The notes beneath the pieces were generated by a model. It saw nothing but the letters and a program-made list of their open reading frames with translations, made no database searches and was not told the origin of the DNA. The position numbers and the translations under genes are program-made. Positions 4,248-18,100 of a stretch of DNA of 42,748 nt are shown in pieces. Every line of letters starts with the position of its first letter. Positions within the stretch are counted from its first letter, which is position 1. Source of the stretch: Alphaproteobacteria bacterium (GTDB lineage Bacteria > Pseudomonadota > Alphaproteobacteria > ATCC43930 > CGMCC-115725); the NCBI GenBank assembly GCA_030041335.1, contig JASHOB010000052.1, positions 1-42,748 of the forward strand, in the 5' to 3' direction.

Positions 4248-5450
4248 ATGATGAGAACCATTTTCCCAGCCATTGTGGCGGCGGCGCTGACGATGACGAA
4301 CGCGGCGCACGCGGATTTCGCGAGCGGCGCCATCAAAATCGGCGTGCTGACCGACCTTTCCGGGCCCTACGAGGGTAATGGCGGCCACGGCTCCGTCGCG
4401 GGCGCACAGATCGCCGCCGACGAGTTCGGCGACAAGATCGACGGCACGCCCATCGTCATCGTCTCCGCCGATCATCAGAACAAGCCCGATATCGGCGTCG
4501 CCATCGCGAGCCGCTGGTTTGAGGTCGAGCATGTCGACGCCATCACTGACCTGGTGAATTCCGGCGTTGCCGGGGCGGTGCTGACGGTGGCGAAGAAAGA
4601 CGACAAGCTGCTGCTCCTCACCGGCGCCGGATCGGAGACGTTCACCGGCAAGAACTGCGCACCCGACAATCTGGTGCAGTGGGTCTACGACACCTACGCC
4701 GCCGGCAGCGCCGCCGGCCAGGCGATGCCCTATCTTGGCAAGACCTGGTTCTTCATCACCGCCGACTATGTTTTCGGCAAGGGCGTACAGGCCGGCACCA
4801 CCCGCGCCATCGAAGCGCGGGGTGGAAAAGTTCTAGGCTCGGTGCTGCACCCGATCGGCACTTCGGATTTTTCCTCCTACATTTTGCAAGCCCAGGCCTC
4901 GGGCGCGGATGTAATCGCCTTGGCAAATGGTGGTCAGGACACGATGAACGCCATCAAGGCGGCACACGAATTCGGCGTGAAAGCGAAGATCTTTCCGGGC
5001 TTCGACCTGACCGAGATCAAGGCGATGGGCCTCGCCAACGCAGCGGGCACGCTCTACGTCGCCTACTGGAATCCGAACATGAATGACAAGTCGCGTGCCT
5101 TCTTCAAGGAGTTCGTCAAGCGCACCGGCAAGCCGGTCGCGGACTTCCAGATCGGCACTTACTCCGTCGTCCACTCCTACCTGCTCGCGGTCAAGGCGAC
5201 TCACTCGACCGATCCGAAGACCGTGCTCGCCCAAATGCGCAAGGCGAAGGTCGACGACGCCTTCACCGACAACGGCTATCTGCGTCCCGACGGCCGAATG
5301 GTCCACGACATCTATCTGCTCCAGGTCAAGACCCCGGCGGAATCGCATGGACCATATGACTGGACCAAGGTGATCGCGACCCTGCCCGGCGACAAGGTGT
5401 TCCGGCCTATCGACGCACCCGGCGGCTGCGCCGCGCTCGCCAAAAAATAA
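4248..5450 (+). CDS. ABC transporter substrate-binding protein, branched-chain amino acid (LIV) type, Sec-exported
   Basis: This 400-residue protein starts with a Sec signal peptide (IVAAALTMTNAAHA, cleavage near residue 23) and continues with a type I periplasmic binding fold of the Peripla_BP_6 kind: IKIGVLTDLSGPYEG at the mature N-terminus, then GRMVHDIYLLQV towards the end. Such proteins capture amino acids, short-chain amides or aromatic acids in the periplasm and deliver them to LivHM permeases. GGGGAGGA precedes the start. It stands without permease genes on its strand; the nearest LIV permease is the minus-strand set at 11172-14470, which has its own binding protein. It may share that permease. 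The ligand is unknown, but homologues are often annotated for aromatic acids or amides. Confidence 0.88.
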   Translation: MMRTIFPAIVAAALTMTNAAHADFASGAIKIGVLTDLSGPYEGNGGHGSVAGAQIAADEFGDKIDGTPIVIVSADHQNKPDIGVAIASRWFEVEHVDAITDLVNSGVAGAVLTVAKKDDKLLLLTGAGSETFTGKNCAPDNLVQWVYDTYAAGSAAGQAMPYLGKTWFFITADYVFGKGVQAGTTRAIEARGGKVLGSVLHPIGTSDFSSYILQAQASGADVIALANGGQDTMNAIKAAHEFGVKAKIFPGFDLTEIKAMGLANAAGTLYVAYWNPNMNDKSRAFFKEFVKRTGKPVADFQIGTYSVVHSYLLAVKATHSTDPKTVLAQMRKAKVDDAFTDNGYLRPDGRMVHDIYLLQVKTPAESHGPYDWTKVIATLPGDKVFRPIDAPGGCAALAKK

Positions 5451-10050: not shown

Positions 10051-11094
10051 TCAGGTCGCGGGGCCGCGCTCCATCGAATAAGGCTGCCACCGGCGCAAGG
10101 GCCCTTTATCCAGCACCGAGGGATTGACGGGGCTGCGCGGCCACAGGCCCTGCAGCGCCAGCGCAATCTCTTGACCGACGCGGCGGCGCCGCGCCGGATC
10201 GAACCGGGCCGAGGCCGAGGCGACATGAGGCGTCAGAATGACATTGTCCATCTTGAGGAGCGGATTGTCCGGCTTGGGCGGCTCGATTTCCAGCACATCG
10301 AGACCGGCGCCGGCAATCCAGCCTTGTTCAAGCGCCTTGATCAGCGCCGACTCGTCCACCGTGGCGCCCCGTCCCGTGTTGATGAAGATCGCGCCCGGCT
10401 TCATCATCTTGAAGTGCCGTTCCTGCAGGAGGTGATGCGCTGTCGCCGTCGCAGGTGCGTGCATCGACACGAAATCCGATTGTGTCAGCACCTCTTCGAG
10501 CGTCGCCGGCTGGACGCCGTAGGGCGACATCACCAGCTCTTCGATATAGGGGTCGTAGGCCATCAACCGCAAACCGAAGGGCTTGGCGCGCATCGCCGTG
10601 GCGCGCGCCACGTGGCCGAAGGCGATGAAGCCGAGCGCGAGGCCCATCAAGCGCGGCTGGTTCAGGCCCGGCCGTCCGTCGCGCCAGCGCCCCTCGCGGA
10701 CCATGCGGTCCTGCGTCAGCACCCGACGAAAGCTCGACAACAGCAACATCATGGCGTGATCGGCAACCTCCTCGATAAACGTATCGGGGACGTTGGTGAC
10801 GGGAATGCCTTTGGCGGTGGCGGCGGCAACATCGATATAGTCCGAGCCCACGGTGCCGAGGGCGATGATCTTGGCTTTTTCCAACCCGTCGATCATGCGC
10901 CTGGTGAAGTTGCGGCCCTTGGCATAGACCGCGTCGGCGTCATGGGCGTGGGAGATGAATTCGTTTTCCGATTCCGCGGGAATCTCCACAATCTCGGCAT
11001 CGAGCGGGATCAATGCCTCGTTTTCAAAATCGTAATTGCCGGCGACCACGGCAAAGCTCTGCCCCCGTGGCGTCACTACCTTGTATTTGGCCAT
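10051..11094 (-). CDS. D-isomer-specific 2-hydroxyacid dehydrogenase
   Basis: The 347-residue protein has the two-domain fold of NAD(P)-dependent 2-hydroxyacid dehydrogenases, which interconvert 2-oxo and D-2-hydroxy acids. The catalytic residues are present: Arg in INTGRGATVDESAL, Glu in GLDVLEIEPP, His in ILTPHVASAS. The Rossmann glycine motif is unusual: instead of GxGxxG it reads GFIAFG, so the middle glycine is lost, which may weaken or change cofactor binding. The start at ATG 11094 follows GGGAGG. It lies 77 bases after livF and 17 before the TPP enzyme gene. The physiological substrate may be an intermediate of the surrounding pathway; glyoxylate or phosphoglycerate roles cannot be excluded. 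Confidence 0.87.
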   Translation of the reverse strand: MAKYKVVTPRGQSFAVVAGNYDFENEALIPLDAEIVEIPAESENEFISHAHDADAVYAKGRNFTRRMIDGLEKAKIIALGTVGSDYIDVAAATAKGIPVTNVPDTFIEEVADHAMMLLLSSFRRVLTQDRMVREGRWRDGRPGLNQPRLMGLALGFIAFGHVARATAMRAKPFGLRLMAYDPYIEELVMSPYGVQPATLEEVLTQSDFVSMHAPATATAHHLLQERHFKMMKPGAIFINTGRGATVDESALIKALEQGWIAGAGLDVLEIEPPKPDNPLLKMDNVILTPHVASASARFDPARRRRVGQEIALALQGLWPRSPVNPSVLDKGPLRRWQPYSMERGPAT

Positions 11095-11171: not shown

Positions 11172-11912
11172 CTAGTGCGCGGCGGCGCCGGGCTGGTGCC
11201 AGTCTTCGGCGCTGGCGCCCGCGAGCGCCCGCACGCGGGCCTCGTCCCTGGCGAAATCGGCGGCGGCGCCGGAATAGACGACGTGCCCGTCGTCGAGGAC
11301 GTAGGCACGGTCGGCGATCGCGACGGCGGCCCGGACATTCTGCTCGACGAGGAGCACCGAGATGCCGCTGCCGCGCGCGGTCGCCACAACGCGGAAGACC
11401 TCCTGCACCACCAGCGGCGCCAAGCCCTGCGACGGCTCGTCGAGAATAAGGAGCCGGGGATTGAGCAGGAGCGCCCGTGCGATCGCCAGCATTTCCTGCT
11501 CGCCGCCCGAGAGCTGCCGGCCCTTGTTGCCCCGGCGTTGTGCCAGTGACGGGAACAGATCGAACACCCGGGCGAGGGTCCACTCGCCCGGCCGTTCCAC
11601 CGGCACCTTGAGATTTTCCTCGACGGTCAGATTGGGAAAGATGCGCCGCCCCTCCGGCACGTAGCCGACGCCCAACCCCGCGATGCGGTACGGCGGCCAA
11701 TCCGTCGTGGCCTGGCCGAAAATCCGCACCGCGCCGTCGCGTGCCCGGGTCAGCCCGACGAGGCTCCTCAGGGTCGTGGTCTTGCCGGCGCCGTTGCGCC
11801 CCAAAAGCGTGACGATCTCGCCTGCATTCACCTCAAGCCCGACGCCGTGCAGGATGTGGCTCTTGCCGTAATAGGTCTGGAGCCCTTCGGCCGCAAGGGC
11901 AGGGCCGCTCAT
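11172..11912 (-). CDS. livF: LIV-type ABC transporter ATP-binding protein LivF
   Basis: The 246-residue ATPase has the Walker A GRNGAGKTT (about residues 38-46), signature LSGGEQEML, and Walker B LLILDEPSQGL, followed by the switch region LLVEQNV. The phrase TYYGKSHILHGVGLEV and the length are typical of LivF rather than LivG. It sits at the membrane with LivG and energises LivHM for import. Its ATG overlaps the livG stop by four bases (ATGA), as is common in these operons. It is the last transporter gene; after a 77-base gap comes the 2-hydroxyacid dehydrogenase gene on the same strand. Confidence 0.93.
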   Translation of the reverse strand: MSGPALAAEGLQTYYGKSHILHGVGLEVNAGEIVTLLGRNGAGKTTTLRSLVGLTRARDGAVRIFGQATTDWPPYRIAGLGVGYVPEGRRIFPNLTVEENLKVPVERPGEWTLARVFDLFPSLAQRRGNKGRQLSGGEQEMLAIARALLLNPRLLILDEPSQGLAPLVVQEVFRVVATARGSGISVLLVEQNVRAAVAIADRAYVLDDGHVVYSGAAADFARDEARVRALAGASAEDWHQPGAAAH

Positions 11913-12658
11913 GCCGCCTGCCCCAGATAGGCCGTCTGCACCGCCTCGTTGGCGGCGATCTCCGCGGGCGTGCCATCGGCGAGCACCGCGCCCTGGGCCA
12001 GGACCATGACCCGCTCGGCGAGATGGAAGACGACGCGCATGTCGTGCTCGATCAGTATGATGGTAAGTTTCTGATCGCGATGCAGTTTGCGGACGAGCTG
12101 CGTGATGTCGTAGGTCTCCTGGTCGCCCATGCCGGCGGTCGGCTCGTCGAGCAGCAGCAATTTCGGTTTCAACGCCAGCGCCATCATGATCTCGGTGGCG
12201 CGCTGGTCGCCGTGGCTGAGTTCGCCCACGCGGCGGTCGGCCATCGGCGCCAGATTGCTGATCTCGAGCAGGTCGGCGACACGCGCCTTTACCTCGGTCT
12301 GCGCGTCACGTTTCAGGAAAGGGCGGAGGCGGTACCCTGACGCGACCTCGATCGCGATACGCAGATTGTCGCGCACCGACAGTTCGGGAAACACCTCGGT
12401 GACCTGGAACGTGCGCGCGATGCCCCGCCATACCCGCCGCGCCGGCTGGAAGCCGGTAATGTCCTCGCCGTCGAACACGATGCGGCCCGCAGTCGGAGGG
12501 AAAAAACCGGTGATCATATTGAAGAAGGTGGTCTTGCCCGCGCCGTTGGGGCCGATAATGGCGCGCAGCTCGCCCGGCTCGACCGTCATGGTGACACCGT
12601 TGACGGCGACCAGGCTGCCGAAATGGCGCGACAGGTTCCGGACCTCGAGCAGGCTCAC
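11909..12658 (-). CDS. livG: LIV-type ABC transporter ATP-binding protein LivG
   Basis: The 249-residue ATPase has Walker A IIGPNGAGKTTFFNMITG, the Q-loop stretch GIARTFQVTEVFPELSV typical of LivG, signature LSHGDQRATEIMMALAL, where LSHGD replaces the usual LSGGQ as in many LivG proteins, and Walker B LLLLDEPTAGM. It forms a heterodimer with LivF under the LivHM permease. The start is GTG 12658, whose GTGA overlaps the livM stop by four bases; reading further upstream in frame gives sequence that belongs to livM in another frame. Overlap on both sides shows translational coupling across livM, livG and livF. Confidence 0.92.
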   Translation of the reverse strand: MSLLEVRNLSRHFGSLVAVNGVTMTVEPGELRAIIGPNGAGKTTFFNMITGFFPPTAGRIVFDGEDITGFQPARRVWRGIARTFQVTEVFPELSVRDNLRIAIEVASGYRLRPFLKRDAQTEVKARVADLLEISNLAPMADRRVGELSHGDQRATEIMMALALKPKLLLLDEPTAGMGDQETYDITQLVRKLHRDQKLTIILIEHDMRVVFHLAERVMVLAQGAVLADGTPAEIAANEAVQTAYLGQAA

Positions 12659-13602
12659 GGCGCCGCCCGCCGCCGCAACATGCCCAAGAGGCCGCGCGGG
12701 AAGAACATCACGACCAGCACGAACAACAGGCCGATGAACGACATCCAGTTCTCGGTCTGGCTCGAGATATAGTCCTGCAGCACGACATAGATCGCGGCGC
12801 CGATCAGCGGCCCCCAAAAATTGCGCATGCCGCCGAGCACCGCCATGATGACAAAGTCGCCCGACTGGTCCCAGCGCAGGTCGTGGGGATCGGCGAAATT
12901 GTTCAGGAGCGCGTAGAGCGTGCCGGAGAGCGAAACGAATCCGCAGGAAATCACCCACGACAACCAGATATGTCGGTCGATGGGGATGCCGAGAAAGCGC
13001 GCACGGCGCTCGTTCTCGCGGATCGCCAACAGCGTCCGGCCAAACGGCGAGTGCAACAGCGCCGCCATGATCGCGACCGCGACCGCGAACCAGAACAAAC
13101 TCCAGTAATAGAGCGCGCTGTCGCTGTTGAGGATGTCGATGCGGGCGAAGCCGAGATCGACCGGCAGGCGCCGCCACCCCGAAAGTCCGTCATCGCCGCC
13201 GGTGACATCGTTCCAGCGATAGGCGATGAAATAGAACACCTGGCCGAACGCGATGGTCACCATGGCGAAATAGATGCCGCGCAGCCGCACGATCAGCATG
13301 CCGAGGATCATGGCGGCGAGCGTGCCGGCGATGACCCCCAACGCCATGCCGGCCAAGCTGCTCGGGACGAGGTATTTGATGGTAAGGCCGAGGCCATAGA
13401 CCCCGAGCCCGAAATAAGCGGCATGGCCGAACGACAGGACACCGGTAAATCCTAAGAGGAAATTGAGCGACATCGCGGCCAACGCCAAGACGACGACGCG
13501 CGTGCCGAGCGCGGTATAACCGCCGATCCAGTTGAGCCAGAACGGCATCGTCAGCAGCAGCAGCCATACCACCGCGTCGGCGGCGCGTCGGTCGAGCGGC
13601 AT
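12655..13602 (-). CDS. livM: LIV-type ABC transporter permease LivM
   Basis: This permease of about 315 residues has eight to ten membrane segments. The family motif LLGFTGVLSFGHAAYFGLGVYGLG is recognisable in its conserved GxxSxGHAAxxGxGxY core, and the later GGMRNFWGPLIGA segment is the permease-ATPase contact loop. The C-terminus ends in a short basic tail (RRRAAP). I choose ATG 13602, one base after the livH stop; a GTG at 13623 would add seven residues and overlap livH. With LivH it forms the transmembrane channel for the substrate delivered by the binding protein. The 3' end overlaps livG by four bases. Confidence 0.91.
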   Translation of the reverse strand: MPLDRRAADAVVWLLLLTMPFWLNWIGGYTALGTRVVVLALAAMSLNFLLGFTGVLSFGHAAYFGLGVYGLGLTIKYLVPSSLAGMALGVIAGTLAAMILGMLIVRLRGIYFAMVTIAFGQVFYFIAYRWNDVTGGDDGLSGWRRLPVDLGFARIDILNSDSALYYWSLFWFAVAVAIMAALLHSPFGRTLLAIRENERRARFLGIPIDRHIWLSWVISCGFVSLSGTLYALLNNFADPHDLRWDQSGDFVIMAVLGGMRNFWGPLIGAAIYVVLQDYISSQTENWMSFIGLLFVLVVMFFPRGLLGMLRRRAAP

Positions 13603-13603
13603 G

Positions 13604-14470
13604 TCAGAAGCGGCCTTCTTCACCCAAAAGGCCGCGCGGGCGCACCAACAGCACCAGGCCCATCAGCACATAGATGACCGCCTCGCTGGCCGACGGCCAG
13701 AACACCACCGTGATTCCCGAGGCGGCGCCGATCAGCAGGCCGCCCAGCAAGGTACCCGGCAGGCTGCCCAGGCCGCCGATGATGATGGCGACGAAGCTTG
13801 GCATGATCAGCGTCGAGCCCATCGTCGGCTGCAAGCCCAGCATGCCGGCGGCGAGCACGCCGGCCAGACCGGCGAGAAAAATGCCGAGGCCGAAATTCAG
13901 ATTGCGCAGAATCCGGACATTGACGCCCAGCACCGAAACGGTCTCGAGGTCGAGCGTGCCGGCGCGGATGCGCATGCCGAGGCGGGTGTAGCCGAGCAGC
14001 AGGAACAGCGCCGCGACAACGACGATCACCAGCATCACCATGAACAGCCGGTAGCCGGTGAGAAAAAAGAATTCGTTGCTGAGCGGGCTCAACATCCAGG
14101 TCGGTACCGAAAACGGCAGCGTCGACGGTCCCCAGACGTAGCGCGTCCCGTCCTCGAGGATGTAGGCGAGGCCGAACGTCAGCAACAAACTGTAGAGCGG
14201 ATCGCGGCCATAGAGCCGATTGATCAGCACGCGTTCGACCACGATCCCGAGCAACGCCGTCGCCAGCGGTGCCAGAATCAGCGCGCCCCAAAAACCGACG
14301 AACGGCATCAGGGTGAAAGCGAGATAGGCGCCGATGCCGAGAAAGCCGCCATGCGCGAAATTGATCACGCCCGACAGATTGAGGATCAGCGACAGGCCCA
14401 GCGCCATTAGCGCATAGAACGCGCCGATGATCAGCCCATTGAAGACGTTGAACAGGATCAGTTGAGTCAT
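13604..14470 (-). CDS. livH: LIV-type ABC transporter permease LivH
   Basis: The 288-residue permease has about eight membrane helices and LivH hallmarks: NGLIIGAFYALMALGLSL at the N-terminus, INFAHGGFLGIGAYLAF, and the contact loop IIIGGLGSLPGTLLGG near residues 231-246. It pairs with LivM. The start at ATG 14470 fits the family N-terminus; no strong ribosome site is evident. The 166-base leader contains a long imperfect palindrome (14496-14612) separating it from the binding protein gene. That spacing suggests that the binding protein and the permease are made in different amounts from one transcript. Confidence 0.92.
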   Translation of the reverse strand: MTQLILFNVFNGLIIGAFYALMALGLSLILNLSGVINFAHGGFLGIGAYLAFTLMPFVGFWGALILAPLATALLGIVVERVLINRLYGRDPLYSLLLTFGLAYILEDGTRYVWGPSTLPFSVPTWMLSPLSNEFFFLTGYRLFMVMLVIVVVAALFLLLGYTRLGMRIRAGTLDLETVSVLGVNVRILRNLNFGLGIFLAGLAGVLAAGMLGLQPTMGSTLIMPSFVAIIIGGLGSLPGTLLGGLLIGAASGITVVFWPSASEAVIYVLMGLVLLVRPRGLLGEEGRF

Positions 14471-14495
14471 GTGGCCATGGGGAGGATAGGGGCCG

Positions 14496-14612
14496 CGCGT
14501 CCCGCGGCGGCTCGCGCCCGAGCGCGCTCAGGACAAGGCAACGATTTTTGTGCCATCAAGACTTTTGTCCTCATCCCGAGCCGGGCGCGAGACCGCCTCT
14601 TCGCGGGACGCG
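14496..14612. repeat. long imperfect inverted repeat between the binding protein and livH
   Basis: Left arm 14496-14536 and right arm 14565-14612 are reverse complements with a few mismatches and small gaps; the outer ends CGCGTCCCGCG/CGCGGGACGCG and the inner ends AGGACAA/TTGTCCT match exactly. The loop is 28 bases and less GC-rich. In RNA from the minus strand this would form a very stable hairpin just after the binding protein stop. By architecture it resembles the mobile palindromic intergenic repeats of bacteria (REP/RIME-like), with a CTCATCCCGAG core reminiscent of palindromes common in Rhizobiales genomes. A role in protecting the upstream message or damping livH expression is inferred, as for the REP between malE and malF. 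Confidence 0.8.
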
Positions 14613-14636
14613 ACGACCGTCATGCCGCTTGTTCGA

Positions 14637-15902
14637 TCAGGCCGGCCATTTGACGTGGCATCCGGTCTCGGCGACCGGCAACGCCGCCTCATCGCCTTTC
14701 ACCAGTTGATCAACGACGAACAGATCCTCCGGGTCTTTTGCTCCTTGGGCAACGGCGTGACCGACATAAAGCGTTGGCATGAGTTGATGATCGCCGGCGC
14801 GGTAGTAGGTCTTGTTCGGCATCAGCGCGATCTCCGGCGGCAGCGTGAAGCCTTCGAGCGCTTTTGCCATCTTCACTGCGTCGAGGGACTTGGTCTCGTT
14901 GGCGACGAGCGCGCACGTCCAAGCCGCAGTATAGCCGAACCAGTGCCGGGCGGTGGGCACCTTGCCGCCGTTGCGCTTGCGGATCGCGGCGATGAATTCC
15001 GGCAGTCCCTTGATATTTGGTTGGTTCCAATACCATTCGAACACCCAGGTGCCGATGCGCGCGTCGGGAGGAAGGCCCTCCAGCACCTCGAGTTCTTGTT
15101 GCGCGCCGGCGATGTGGAAACGCTTGTCGAGACCGAACTGAACCGCCTGCTTCAGCGAGCTGACCGCGTCCTGGCCTGCGGTCAGGAAGATGATGACGTC
15201 GGGATTGGTCGACTGTGCCTTGATGAGATAGGACGAGTAGTCCGTCGCGCCTAGCGGCGCCAGCGAGGCGCCGGTTTCGATGCCACCGTGAGCCTTTAGA
15301 AAAACCTCGAACCCCTGTTGCAGGGTATGGCCGAAAGCGTAGTCCGGCGTGATGAAGTACCATTTCTTGCCGTATTTGGTGAACAGCGTCTGCGCCACGG
15401 AATTGGTTTCCATGCGCGTCGTGTTGCAGACCCGGAACACGTTCCAATGACAATCGGTGCCGGTCACGGCGTCGGTGTGGCCGCCGGTCACGATGTGAAA
15501 CGTCTTCAATTCGTTCGACACTTCGCCGGTTGCGAGCGCCATCGCCGAATTGACGTTGCCAAGCAAGAAATCGACCTTGTCCCGCTCGATCAGCTTGCGC
15601 GCCTTTTGCACCGCCGTGCCGGTGTCGGCGCTGGTTGAATCCTCGACCAAGAGCTCGACCTTGCGCGCGAGGATGCCGCCCTTGGCGTTGATCTCGTCGA
15701 TCGCCAGTTCGCAGCCGATTTGTTCATTCCTGCCAAGTTCCGCGTAGGTACCTGTCAGCGGGTCGTCCAAGCCCATCTTGACGGTGTCGGCGGCACGGGC
15801 GGAAATGACGAAAGGCGCCGCGACTTGCGCGACCCCGGCCGCTGCGGCGGCCTTGATGACGGTACGGCGATCGAGCATGTCCCTAAGAATTTTATTGGTC
15901 AT
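14637..15902 (-). CDS. ABC transporter substrate-binding protein, LIV type, Tat-exported
   Basis: The 421-residue protein begins with a twin-arginine signal: DRRTVIK, then a hydrophobic stretch AAAAAGVAQVAAPFV and an A-x-A-type cleavage near SARA. The mature part starts VKMGLDDPLTGTYAELG and follows the type I periplasmic binding fold, with KARKLIERDKVDFLLGNVNS and ATDYSSYLIKAQ. Export by Tat means it folds in the cytoplasm first, unlike the Sec-type homologue at 4248. GGAGCG precedes ATG 15902. It is almost certainly the binding component for LivHMGF directly downstream. The pattern resembles family members annotated for aromatic acids, urea or amides; the ligand cannot be named. Confidence 0.9.
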   Translation of the reverse strand: MTNKILRDMLDRRTVIKAAAAAGVAQVAAPFVISARAADTVKMGLDDPLTGTYAELGRNEQIGCELAIDEINAKGGILARKVELLVEDSTSADTGTAVQKARKLIERDKVDFLLGNVNSAMALATGEVSNELKTFHIVTGGHTDAVTGTDCHWNVFRVCNTTRMETNSVAQTLFTKYGKKWYFITPDYAFGHTLQQGFEVFLKAHGGIETGASLAPLGATDYSSYLIKAQSTNPDVIIFLTAGQDAVSSLKQAVQFGLDKRFHIAGAQQELEVLEGLPPDARIGTWVFEWYWNQPNIKGLPEFIAAIRKRNGGKVPTARHWFGYTAAWTCALVANETKSLDAVKMAKALEGFTLPPEIALMPNKTYYRAGDHQLMPTLYVGHAVAQGAKDPEDLFVVDQLVKGDEAALPVAETGCHVKWPA

Positions 15903-16003
15903 CGAACGCTCCCTGTGCCCAGGCGCGGGACCTGGCCGCGACCGGCGTCCTCCTCCGCCCTCGCGCCGACAAGGTAGCGGGCGGCGGGTCGATCCTGCAA
16001 GAC

Positions 16004-18100
16004 TCAGGCGGCGGCTTTGTATGCGGCGATGCCCTTGTCCTCGGCGACCAGCCGCTCGATCAGCGGCGCCGGTTTGAACAGGCTGCCGTGCTGTTTCTCC
16101 AGCTCGAGCATGCGGTCGCGGATTTTCTTGAGGCCGACGAGATCGGCATAGAACATCGGCCCGCCCCGCCACAACGGCCAACCGTAGCCGTAGACCCAGA
16201 TCACGTCGATGTCCGACGCCCTTAATGCCTTGCGCTCTTCCAGGATCTTCGCCGCCTCGTTGATCATCGGATAGATCAGGCGCTCGAAAATCTCCTGGTC
16301 GGGAATGGCGCGGCGGTCGACGCCCTCGCGGCGCGAGGCTTCCTTGATGATCTCCTCCACTTCCGGATCGGGGAGCGGCGCGCGGCTGCCCGGCTCATAG
16401 TGGTAGAAGCCTTTGCCCGCCTTCTGGCCGAAGCGGCCGCGCTCGGCCAGGCTGTCGCCGATGAAATTCTTGGCGCCGATCTCCTGGCGCCGCCGCCAGC
16501 CAAGCTCGATGCCGCCGCCCATGTCGGTGACGGCATAGGGACCCATCGGGAAACCGAAATCGACCAGCACCTTGTCGATCTGCTGCGGCAGCGCGCCCTC
16601 GATCAGCAAGCGCTCCGACTGCATACCGCGCGCCCGCATGATGCGATTCCCGACGAAGCCGTCGCAAACGCCGACGAGTACCGCGACTTTGCTGATCTTG
16701 CGCGCCACCGCCATTGAGGTCGCGACCACCCAGTCCGCGGTTTTGGCGGCCCGCACGATCTCCAAGAGCCGCATGACGTTGGCCGGCGAAAAGAAATGCA
16801 GGCCAATCACCGATTCCGGCCGCGACGCCACCGCCGCGATCTCGTCGATGTTCAAGGCCGAGGTGTTGGTGGCGAGGATCGCGCCCTTCCTGGCAAGCTT
16901 GTCCAGCTTTTGGAAGATCTCCTTCTTCAGGCCCATGTTCTCGTACACCGCCTCAATGATGAGGTCAGCGCCGGCGACATCCTCGATCTTGAGGCTTGGC
17001 TCGATCAGCGCCATGCGCTTCTCGATGTCGTCGGCGGCCAGTCCGCCGCGCGCCGCCGTGTTTTCGTAGTTGCGGCGGATGACGCCGAGACCGCGATCGA
17101 GATTCTTCTGGTCCTGCTCGATCAATGTGACCGGGATGCCGGCATTGGCGAAGTTCATGGTGATACCGCCGCCCATCGTGCCGGCGCCGATCACGGCAAC
17201 GGTCTTGATCTCGACCGGCTTGGTGTCAGGGGTGAGGCCCGGGATCTTCGCCGCCTCGCGCTCGGCGAAGAAGAAATAGCGTTGCGCCTTCGATTGGTCC
17301 GAGGCCAGGAGCTCCTGGAACAGGCGGCGCTCTTCGGCGATGCCTTGGTCGAACGGCAGATTCACCGCGGCCTCGAGGCATTTCATGATGTGGTTGGGCG
17401 CCATTTGGCCGCGCCAACGGCGACCATGGGTCTTGCGGAACTCGTCGAAGACGCCGGGATTGGCACGCGCCGCCAATATTTTCTCGTCGCGGTCGCGTAC
17501 CAAGGGCGGCTTGGCACGGGCCGCCGCCTTCTCGGCGAAGGCAACGGCGCCCGCGCGCAAGTCGCCCGCCACGATTTCGTCGATCAGACCGATCTCCTTT
17601 GCCTCGTCCGCGCCGATCATGTCGCCCGTGGTGATCATCGCCATCGCCTTCGCGATGCCGACGAGGCGGGGCAGACGCTGGGTGCCGCCGCCCCCCGGCA
17701 GCAGGCCGAGCTTGACTTCCGGCAGGCCGAACCGCGCCGAGCGGACCGCGATGCGATAATGACAAGCGAGCGCCAGCTCCAATCCGCCGCCCAAGGCGGT
17801 GCCGTGGATGGCGGCAATAACCGGTTTGGCACTGGCCTCGATCGCGGCGACGATGTCATGGAGGCCGGGCGCACGCGGCGCCTTGCCGAATTCGCTGATA
17901 TCGGCGCCGGCAACGAAAGTGCGGCCGGCGCAGATCAACACGATCGCTTTGAGCGCCGGGTCGGCGACCGCTTGCGTCAAGCCATCGAGCAATCCGACAC
18001 GCAGCCCGTGGCTCAACGCGTTCACCGGCGGATTGTCGGCGGTGAGAATGGCGACGACACCTTCACGGTCGAGGGTGACGAAATCGTTGATGTGGGCCAT
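16004..18100 (-). CDS. fused enoyl-CoA hydratase/3-hydroxyacyl-CoA dehydrogenase (FadB/FadJ-like)
   Basis: The 698-residue protein carries an N-terminal crotonase domain (about 1-190; oxyanion-hole segments GRTFVAGADISEF and ALGGGLELAL, catalytic Glu in LPEVKLGLLPGGGG) and a C-terminal NAD-dependent dehydrogenase (from about 295; VAVIGAGTMGGGI nucleotide-binding motif and catalytic His in GLHFFSPANVMRLLE), then a 3HCDH C-terminal part. It hydrates enoyl-CoA and oxidises the 3-hydroxyacyl-CoA, as in beta-oxidation. ATG 18100 follows AAAGGGA. No acyl-CoA dehydrogenase or classical thiolase is adjacent, so the cluster is not a full fatty acid cycle. A short palindrome lies 83 bases upstream of the start. 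Confidence 0.93.
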   Translation of the reverse strand: MAHINDFVTLDREGVVAILTADNPPVNALSHGLRVGLLDGLTQAVADPALKAIVLICAGRTFVAGADISEFGKAPRAPGLHDIVAAIEASAKPVIAAIHGTALGGGLELALACHYRIAVRSARFGLPEVKLGLLPGGGGTQRLPRLVGIAKAMAMITTGDMIGADEAKEIGLIDEIVAGDLRAGAVAFAEKAAARAKPPLVRDRDEKILAARANPGVFDEFRKTHGRRWRGQMAPNHIMKCLEAAVNLPFDQGIAEERRLFQELLASDQSKAQRYFFFAEREAAKIPGLTPDTKPVEIKTVAVIGAGTMGGGITMNFANAGIPVTLIEQDQKNLDRGLGVIRRNYENTAARGGLAADDIEKRMALIEPSLKIEDVAGADLIIEAVYENMGLKKEIFQKLDKLARKGAILATNTSALNIDEIAAVASRPESVIGLHFFSPANVMRLLEIVRAAKTADWVVATSMAVARKISKVAVLVGVCDGFVGNRIMRARGMQSERLLIEGALPQQIDKVLVDFGFPMGPYAVTDMGGGIELGWRRRQEIGAKNFIGDSLAERGRFGQKAGKGFYHYEPGSRAPLPDPEVEEIIKEASRREGVDRRAIPDQEIFERLIYPMINEAAKILEERKALRASDIDVIWVYGYGWPLWRGGPMFYADLVGLKKIRDRMLELEKQHGSLFKPAPLIERLVAEDKGIAAYKAAA

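Follow-up and report, generated by a model that had tools for sequence, protein, structure and literature searches.

Between the binding-protein gene and livH of a branched-chain-type ABC importer operon, a 42,748-nt stretch of alphaproteobacterial DNA (the window) carries an imperfect palindrome of 117 nt, which raises the questions of where such an element comes from and what, if anything, it does at this junction. The original prediction held that it is a mobile intergenic palindrome and that its site resembles that of the malE-malF hairpin, by which more binding protein than permease is made. The malE-malF hairpin of the E. coli malEFG operon is a REP sequence.

A stable hairpin between the binding-protein gene and livH

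The operon runs in the order binding protein, palindrome, livH, livM, livG, livF (Table 1), and its genes encode a Peripla_BP_6 binding protein, two BPD_transp_2 permeases and two ABC_tran ATPases, all on the minus strand, as had been proposed. Since homology begins near residue 80, the true start of the binding-protein gene probably lies near 15902. A four-codon frame, ATG GCC ACA TGA (14467-14478, minus strand), overlaps the livH start codon by ATGA and could reflect either translational coupling or chance. Elsewhere in the window, another gene for a binding protein of this superfamily (4248-5450, plus strand) is ~31% identical to the first, with no adjoining liv permease called.

Table 1. 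Features of the liv operon and of the palindrome at its first junction (window coordinates).
Feature	Coordinates	Strand	Remarks
Branched-chain-type substrate-binding protein gene	14637..16181	-	longest ORF
Imperfect palindrome, member of the dispersed family of model R1	14496..14612	-	best model match 14497-14611
Outer arm, 5' on mRNA	14602..14612	-	counterpart of family GCGTCCTTCGA
Inner stem, 5' side	14569..14580	-	CTCGGGATGAGG here, CTCAGGATGAGG in family
Loop region	14537..14564	-	contains family motif TTGATGGCA
Inner stem, 3' side	14528..14539	-	CCTTGTCCTGAG here, CCTCATCCTGAG in family; 3 G-U pairs on mRNA strand
Outer arm, 3' on mRNA	14496..14506	-	2 pairs changed on both sides versus family form
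livH-type permease gene	13604..14470	-	next gene of operon
livM-type permease gene	12655..13623	-	longest ORF
livG-type ATPase gene	11909..12658	-	called start; longest ORF 11909-13177
livF-type ATPase gene	11172..11912	-	

The palindrome itself has the architecture originally described: arms of 41 nt (14496-14536) and 48 nt (14565-14612) enclose a 28-nt loop, the outer ends CGCGTCCCGCG/CGCGGGACGCG pair over 11 bp without mismatch, the inner ends AGGACAA (14530-14536) and TTGTCCT (14565-14571) are likewise exact, and 24 nt separate the element from the binding-protein stop codon (14637-14639). The window holds no second copy by covariance model search, again in agreement with the original prediction.

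On the mRNA (minus) strand, 14480-14630 folds at -88.9 kcal/mol, where its shuffles average -64.7 (z -5.9), and on the plus strand at -81.2 kcal/mol (z -4.0), with none of 200 shuffles folding as well on either strand. In folding energy, the segment 14490-14616 (minus strand, -80.2 kcal/mol) surpasses all 3410 segments of 127 nt sampled every 25 nt along either strand of the window, the best of which reaches -78.9. A search of 14400-14750 gave no terminator-like site, and the hairpin thus lacks a T-rich tail; an intrinsic terminator, namely a G+C-rich hairpin followed by a T-rich tract, was rejected as its identity for this reason.

The palindrome belongs to a dispersed family

BLAST matches at E <= 0.01, many of which are short, were obtained in 22 of 61 genomes and gave the first lead to a family. 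In its members, GCGTCCTTCGA/TCGAAGGACGC forms the outer stem and CTCAGGATGAGG/CCTCATCCTGAG the inner one, the loop centres on TGATGGCAT, and the variable side arms either pair together or fold as separate hairpins. The exact core pattern is present in 11 of the 39 family genomes, at 74 places in one of them (G017), and its reversed control gave no match in the same 39.

We built a covariance model, R1, from 18 of 23 candidate copies, holding out on purpose the window copy and that of a congener, G002; L013, whose outer stem is incomplete, and, by choice, L078, L088, L089 and L095 were left out, and a partial match at a contig edge (L060, G024) was unused. With its own copy absent from the model, the window element was found at 63.6 bits (14497-14611, E 4.9e-12), and it contains the nested outer and inner stems with family sequence. 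By sequence and model score, the window palindrome is a member of a dispersed palindrome family of alphaproteobacteria. Matches to R1 at E <= 0.01 occur in 28 of the 39 family genomes, some with 70 or more, counting both strands and scoring at most 96 candidates per genome. Alphaproteobacteria widely contain the family's inner core: it was found in at least 119 stretches of named records, which, among the matches listed, include Caulobacter, Bradyrhizobium, Mesorhizobium, Rhodospira, some unspecified Proteobacteria and one Archangium MAG. No Rfam family reached its gathering score in the window or at seven copy-bearing loci, and the open-access literature, searched by sequence words and by topic with most subscription journals outside, yielded no name for the family. 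There is no mention of malE or REP in PMC3997798.

Pairing within the family was assessed on an R1 alignment of 58 distinct rows, which was fitted to the model and includes both strands of most sites. Here, 93.6% of stem cells pair, compared with 90.1% in shuffles, and doubly changed stem cells number 45 versus 18 (none of 500 shuffles as high), with no excess over shuffles in doubly changed pairs (7 vs 5.9) or in pair types (22 vs 19.9). In the window copy, two outer-stem pairs, 14605/14503 (TA to CG) and 14604/14504 (TA to GC), are doubly changed relative to the family form with pairing kept, which could also stem from template switching between the arms.

Placement was scored with our own simple gene caller at 35 distinct places (36 rows, of which L012 and L126 are one place). 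The flanking genes are co-directional at 25 of them, convergent at 4 and divergent at 2; of the other copies, 2 overlap a called gene and 2 lie at a contig edge. In G008, copies stand in tandem 127-129 bp apart (L086/L095 at G008:C45; also at G008:C98), as if amplified in a row.

An apparently solitary copy in its own genome, with a counterpart in a congener

Further copies were sought in the host genome (G000), and none was significant by BLAST, core pattern or covariance model. BLAST returned 8 further matches, all of 17-34 nt, and the core pattern with one mismatch recurs at 18 further places, none of which has a complementary partner arm (<=2 mismatches, within 75 nt). The covariance search with R1, in which 96 of 3328 first-look candidates were scored, gave two matches; since the nearly symmetric element matches R1 in either direction, we take them to be the two strands of a single site. 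A weak match (L036, ~1428-1535 of G000:C78, 21.5 bits) may be a decayed family copy or chance; its E of 0.033 for the 153 kb searched corresponds to about 1 for the whole genome, and we therefore judged it not significant. Given the share of candidates scored and this weak match, solitary here means one significant copy. A lack of further genomic copies was one half of the condition under which the original prediction would fall, and for this genome that half holds. Two partial plasmid matches at E 0.3 were rejected as copies. The family, multicopy in relatives, has a single significant site in G000, where the window element is, from sequence comparison, apparently a diverged and solitary member.

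The congener G002 has its own family member at the same binding-protein/livH junction (46.6 bits), where the binding protein is 86% and livH 97% identical to those of the window; G001 and G003, both incomplete assemblies, gave no close ortholog of this junction. One insertion before the split would be the simplest reading of the two sequences, although two separate insertions may also account for them. On the mRNA strand, the G002 copy has 2 G-U pairs in its outer stem and 3 A-C mismatches in its inner stem. Its sense fold is weaker than its antisense fold (-79.3 vs -82.0), whereas in the window copy the sense fold is the stronger (-76.7 vs -71.1); because the stronger strand thus differs between the two, we claim no strand-specific selection, and fold strand bias was dropped as a sign of selection at the RNA level.

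Evidence that the family moves comes from two other sites, and not from the window junction. One copy in the congener G003 (L028) occupies a 175-nt gap whose flanking genes are separated by 3 nt in G001 and by 7 nt in G000, and a second (L112) occupies a 165-nt gap whose flanking genes are 9 nt apart in G002. The gaps are thus only 3-9 nt wide in sister species, from which we conclude that family elements come and go, whether by insertion or by loss. At the L112 site, G000 itself has ~179 nt of other sequence (L322/L325, G000:C251, ~10061-10239), with no BLAST similarity. The mobility proposed in the original prediction is therefore supported by the family, which is multicopy in relatives and has two G003 copies missing from the same gaps in sister species, and not by copies in the host genome, where a single diverged one is kept. 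A REP-associated transposase (Y1_Tnp) is not likely to be the mover, as none was found in the draft genomes G000-G003, G017, G026 and G030. Y1_Tnp matches occur in 9 of 39 genomes, the copy-rich G008 and G032 among them.

Hairpins recur at binding-protein/livH junctions

We read the orthologous junction, with livH co-directional, in the window and ten relatives; the G007 ortholog (L055/L133), in which the binding-protein gene was called on the strand opposite to livH, was left out. By eye, all 11 junctions contain G+C-rich hairpins, whose sequences differ except between G000 and G002. By fold z-score, 8 of the 11 fall below -2, and the three above it are those of G018 (-1.6), G009 (-1.3) and G013 (-0.9). 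Two of these unrelated hairpins, the ones searched for across genomes, are themselves dispersed repeats, with matches counted on both strands and the junction itself included: the G019 junction (L131 4854-4989) has 23 matches in G019 and 9 in G010, and the G011 junction (L129 6258-6414) is another dispersed palindrome, of the CCCTCCCCC...GGGGGAGGG type, with 63 matches in G011 and 16 in G020. The G019 repeat resembles a CGTC-type REP dimer by eye. One orthologous junction thus harbours three different dispersed repeat families, in G000 and G002, in G019 and in G011.

A wider survey covered 60 stretches and the window, with genes called by our own caller trained on liv genes; the sample is not random, since the stretches were picked by hand. 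The median gap is 76 nt in 38 binding-protein/livH junctions versus -4 nt in 123 other junctions of these operons. The fold test took gaps of 40-350 nt, which retained 28 of the 38 junctions and excluded 10, and the median z is -2.4 for these 28, whereas co-directional junctions of other kinds have a median of -0.5 (n = 128) and other liv junctions one of 0.2 (n = 6). The 28 differ from the 134 others by Mann-Whitney test (p 2e-7; p 6e-5 for the best 60-nt fold), as do the 17 junctions outside the window's ortholog group (p 2e-4), with the p-values serving as guides because related junctions are not independent. Per-genome means give stronger binding-protein/livH folds in 17 of 18 genomes, with G022 the opposite. 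Under a home-made rule, a terminator-like T-rich tail follows 2 of the 28 junctions and 5 of the 134 others.

This excess of junction hairpins is the stronger argument for function. A broader reading, which we hold tentatively and rate somewhat below an even chance, is that the alphaproteobacterial liv binding-protein/permease junction is a recurrent capture site of unrelated mobile palindromes kept as stoichiometry-setting hairpins, with the hairpin selected and not its sequence; the window copy would then be a domesticated relic of a family all but gone from its genome. Such a junction would offer a natural experiment on repeats becoming regulatory parts and tie mobile palindromes to a concrete job.

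What the junction hairpin may do

We consider it reasonably probable, by analogy, that the captured mobile palindrome acts as an intercistronic mRNA stabiliser in the manner of the malE-malF hairpin. A palindrome of a mobile family, lying just 3' of the binding-protein stop codon, would be transcribed within the operon mRNA and form a very stable hairpin without a T-rich tail, which would most likely block 3'-to-5' decay starting in the downstream permease part. The binding-protein message would then outlast and outnumber the livH-livM-livG-livF message, and the palindrome would probably allow binding protein to be made in excess of the membrane transporter. We infer, along this path, that the window genome and G002 share a single insertion, that the hairpin stabilises RNA, that this shifts the protein ratio and that the shift is under selection. 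Message decay in E. coli leaves more malE than malFG, and potD and artI are also stabilised (PMC5927463). Stabilisation is favoured because the window junction has no terminator-like site, because a clostridial stem-loop stripped of its U-rich tract was read through (PMC9045158) and because of the malE, potD and artI precedent. The likeness to malE-malF in the original prediction holds for the arrangement, a hairpin between binding-protein and permease genes without a terminator tail; for the effect, the junction fold statistics, the missing tail and the E. coli precedent argue indirectly, and stabilisation would be what they lead one to expect. Counting against stabilisation are the 3 of 11 orthologous junctions with z above -2, the reversed order in G022, and the inner-stem A-C mismatches and stronger antisense fold of the G002 copy.

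The main rival is that the palindrome is a neutral passenger, inserted behind a stop codon where gaps tolerate insertions and with little effect on expression. The element's place may indeed owe nothing to transport, because co-directional gene pairs are a common setting of the family in any case (25 of the 35 places). Its presence also varies at two other sites with no gene disrupted, and the stems of the G002 copy have partly decayed. Nevertheless, relatives without this family have strong hairpins at their binding-protein/livH junctions as well, the window element is the only significant copy left in its genome, and double changes have preserved the pairing of its outer stem, although template switching between arms can do likewise. 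On balance, we regard a passenger as unlikely, yet as an account to be taken seriously.

Two further accounts give the junction a role by other means. The hairpin could be a partial terminator at which a share of transcripts stops once the binding-protein gene has been read, as happens in ABC importer operons of clostridia, with which position and purpose agree. There, leaky termination occurs at stem-loops that follow binding-protein genes, even at types that have fewer than five U (PMC9045158), and because such stem-loops also terminate, leaky termination retains some probability here. However, the window junction has no terminator-like site, T-rich tails follow few such junctions under our own rule (2 of 28), and a clostridial stem-loop without its U-rich tract gave a read-through band only (PMC9045158), which makes partial termination quite improbable in our view. 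Alternatively, the palindrome could work as DNA, as a protein-binding, cruciform or supercoiling site without an mRNA role, as proposed for REP sequences generally. Its near symmetry, with both strands matching the model, would suit such a role, and REP elements of other bacteria have been reported as binding sites for gyrase, IHF and DNA polymerase I (PMC5082802). In relatives, though, unrelated sequences occupy this junction, and what they have in common is just the ability to fold into a hairpin; a DNA binding site is disfavoured because a specific site would be expected to keep its sequence, and we give this account very little weight.

Comparison with known systems

Dispersed palindromes are familiar from related bacteria. 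Br-REP1 and Br-REP2 of Bradyrhizobium (PMC5082802) are, like the present family, dispersed palindromes of alphaproteobacteria, and they occur in 3' UTRs, but they have other consensus sequences and shorter units as described there; identity with them was rejected, the published consensus differing by inspection from that of the present family. The CGTC and GTAG REP superfamilies (PMC3733652) are likewise high-copy palindromes. According to the descriptions in that source, REPs measure 20-40 bp, and the CGTC types, which prevail in alphaproteobacteria without a dedicated transposase, combine stems of 8-9 bp with loops of 4-5 nt and an unpaired tag, unlike the nested pair of 11-12 bp stems and the side arms seen here. 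The window element was therefore not identified as a CGTC-tagged REP, since size and stems differ, a comparison made by description; some REP family of PMC3733652 may still be related to part of the element.

Closer in position are the internal terminators of cellulolytic clostridia, where a stem-loop directly 3' of the binding-protein gene is proposed to serve the same purpose. As characterised in the relevant parts of PMC9045158, these act as leaky terminators through 3' U-rich tracts, whereas the window junction shows no terminator-like site.

The closest counterpart is the malE-malF hairpin. The sequence of the window element is unrelated to it and longer (117 nt), and the RNA effect is one that we infer here; in both cases, a hairpin separates the binding-protein gene from the permease genes in an ABC importer operon whose first gene is meant to be in excess.
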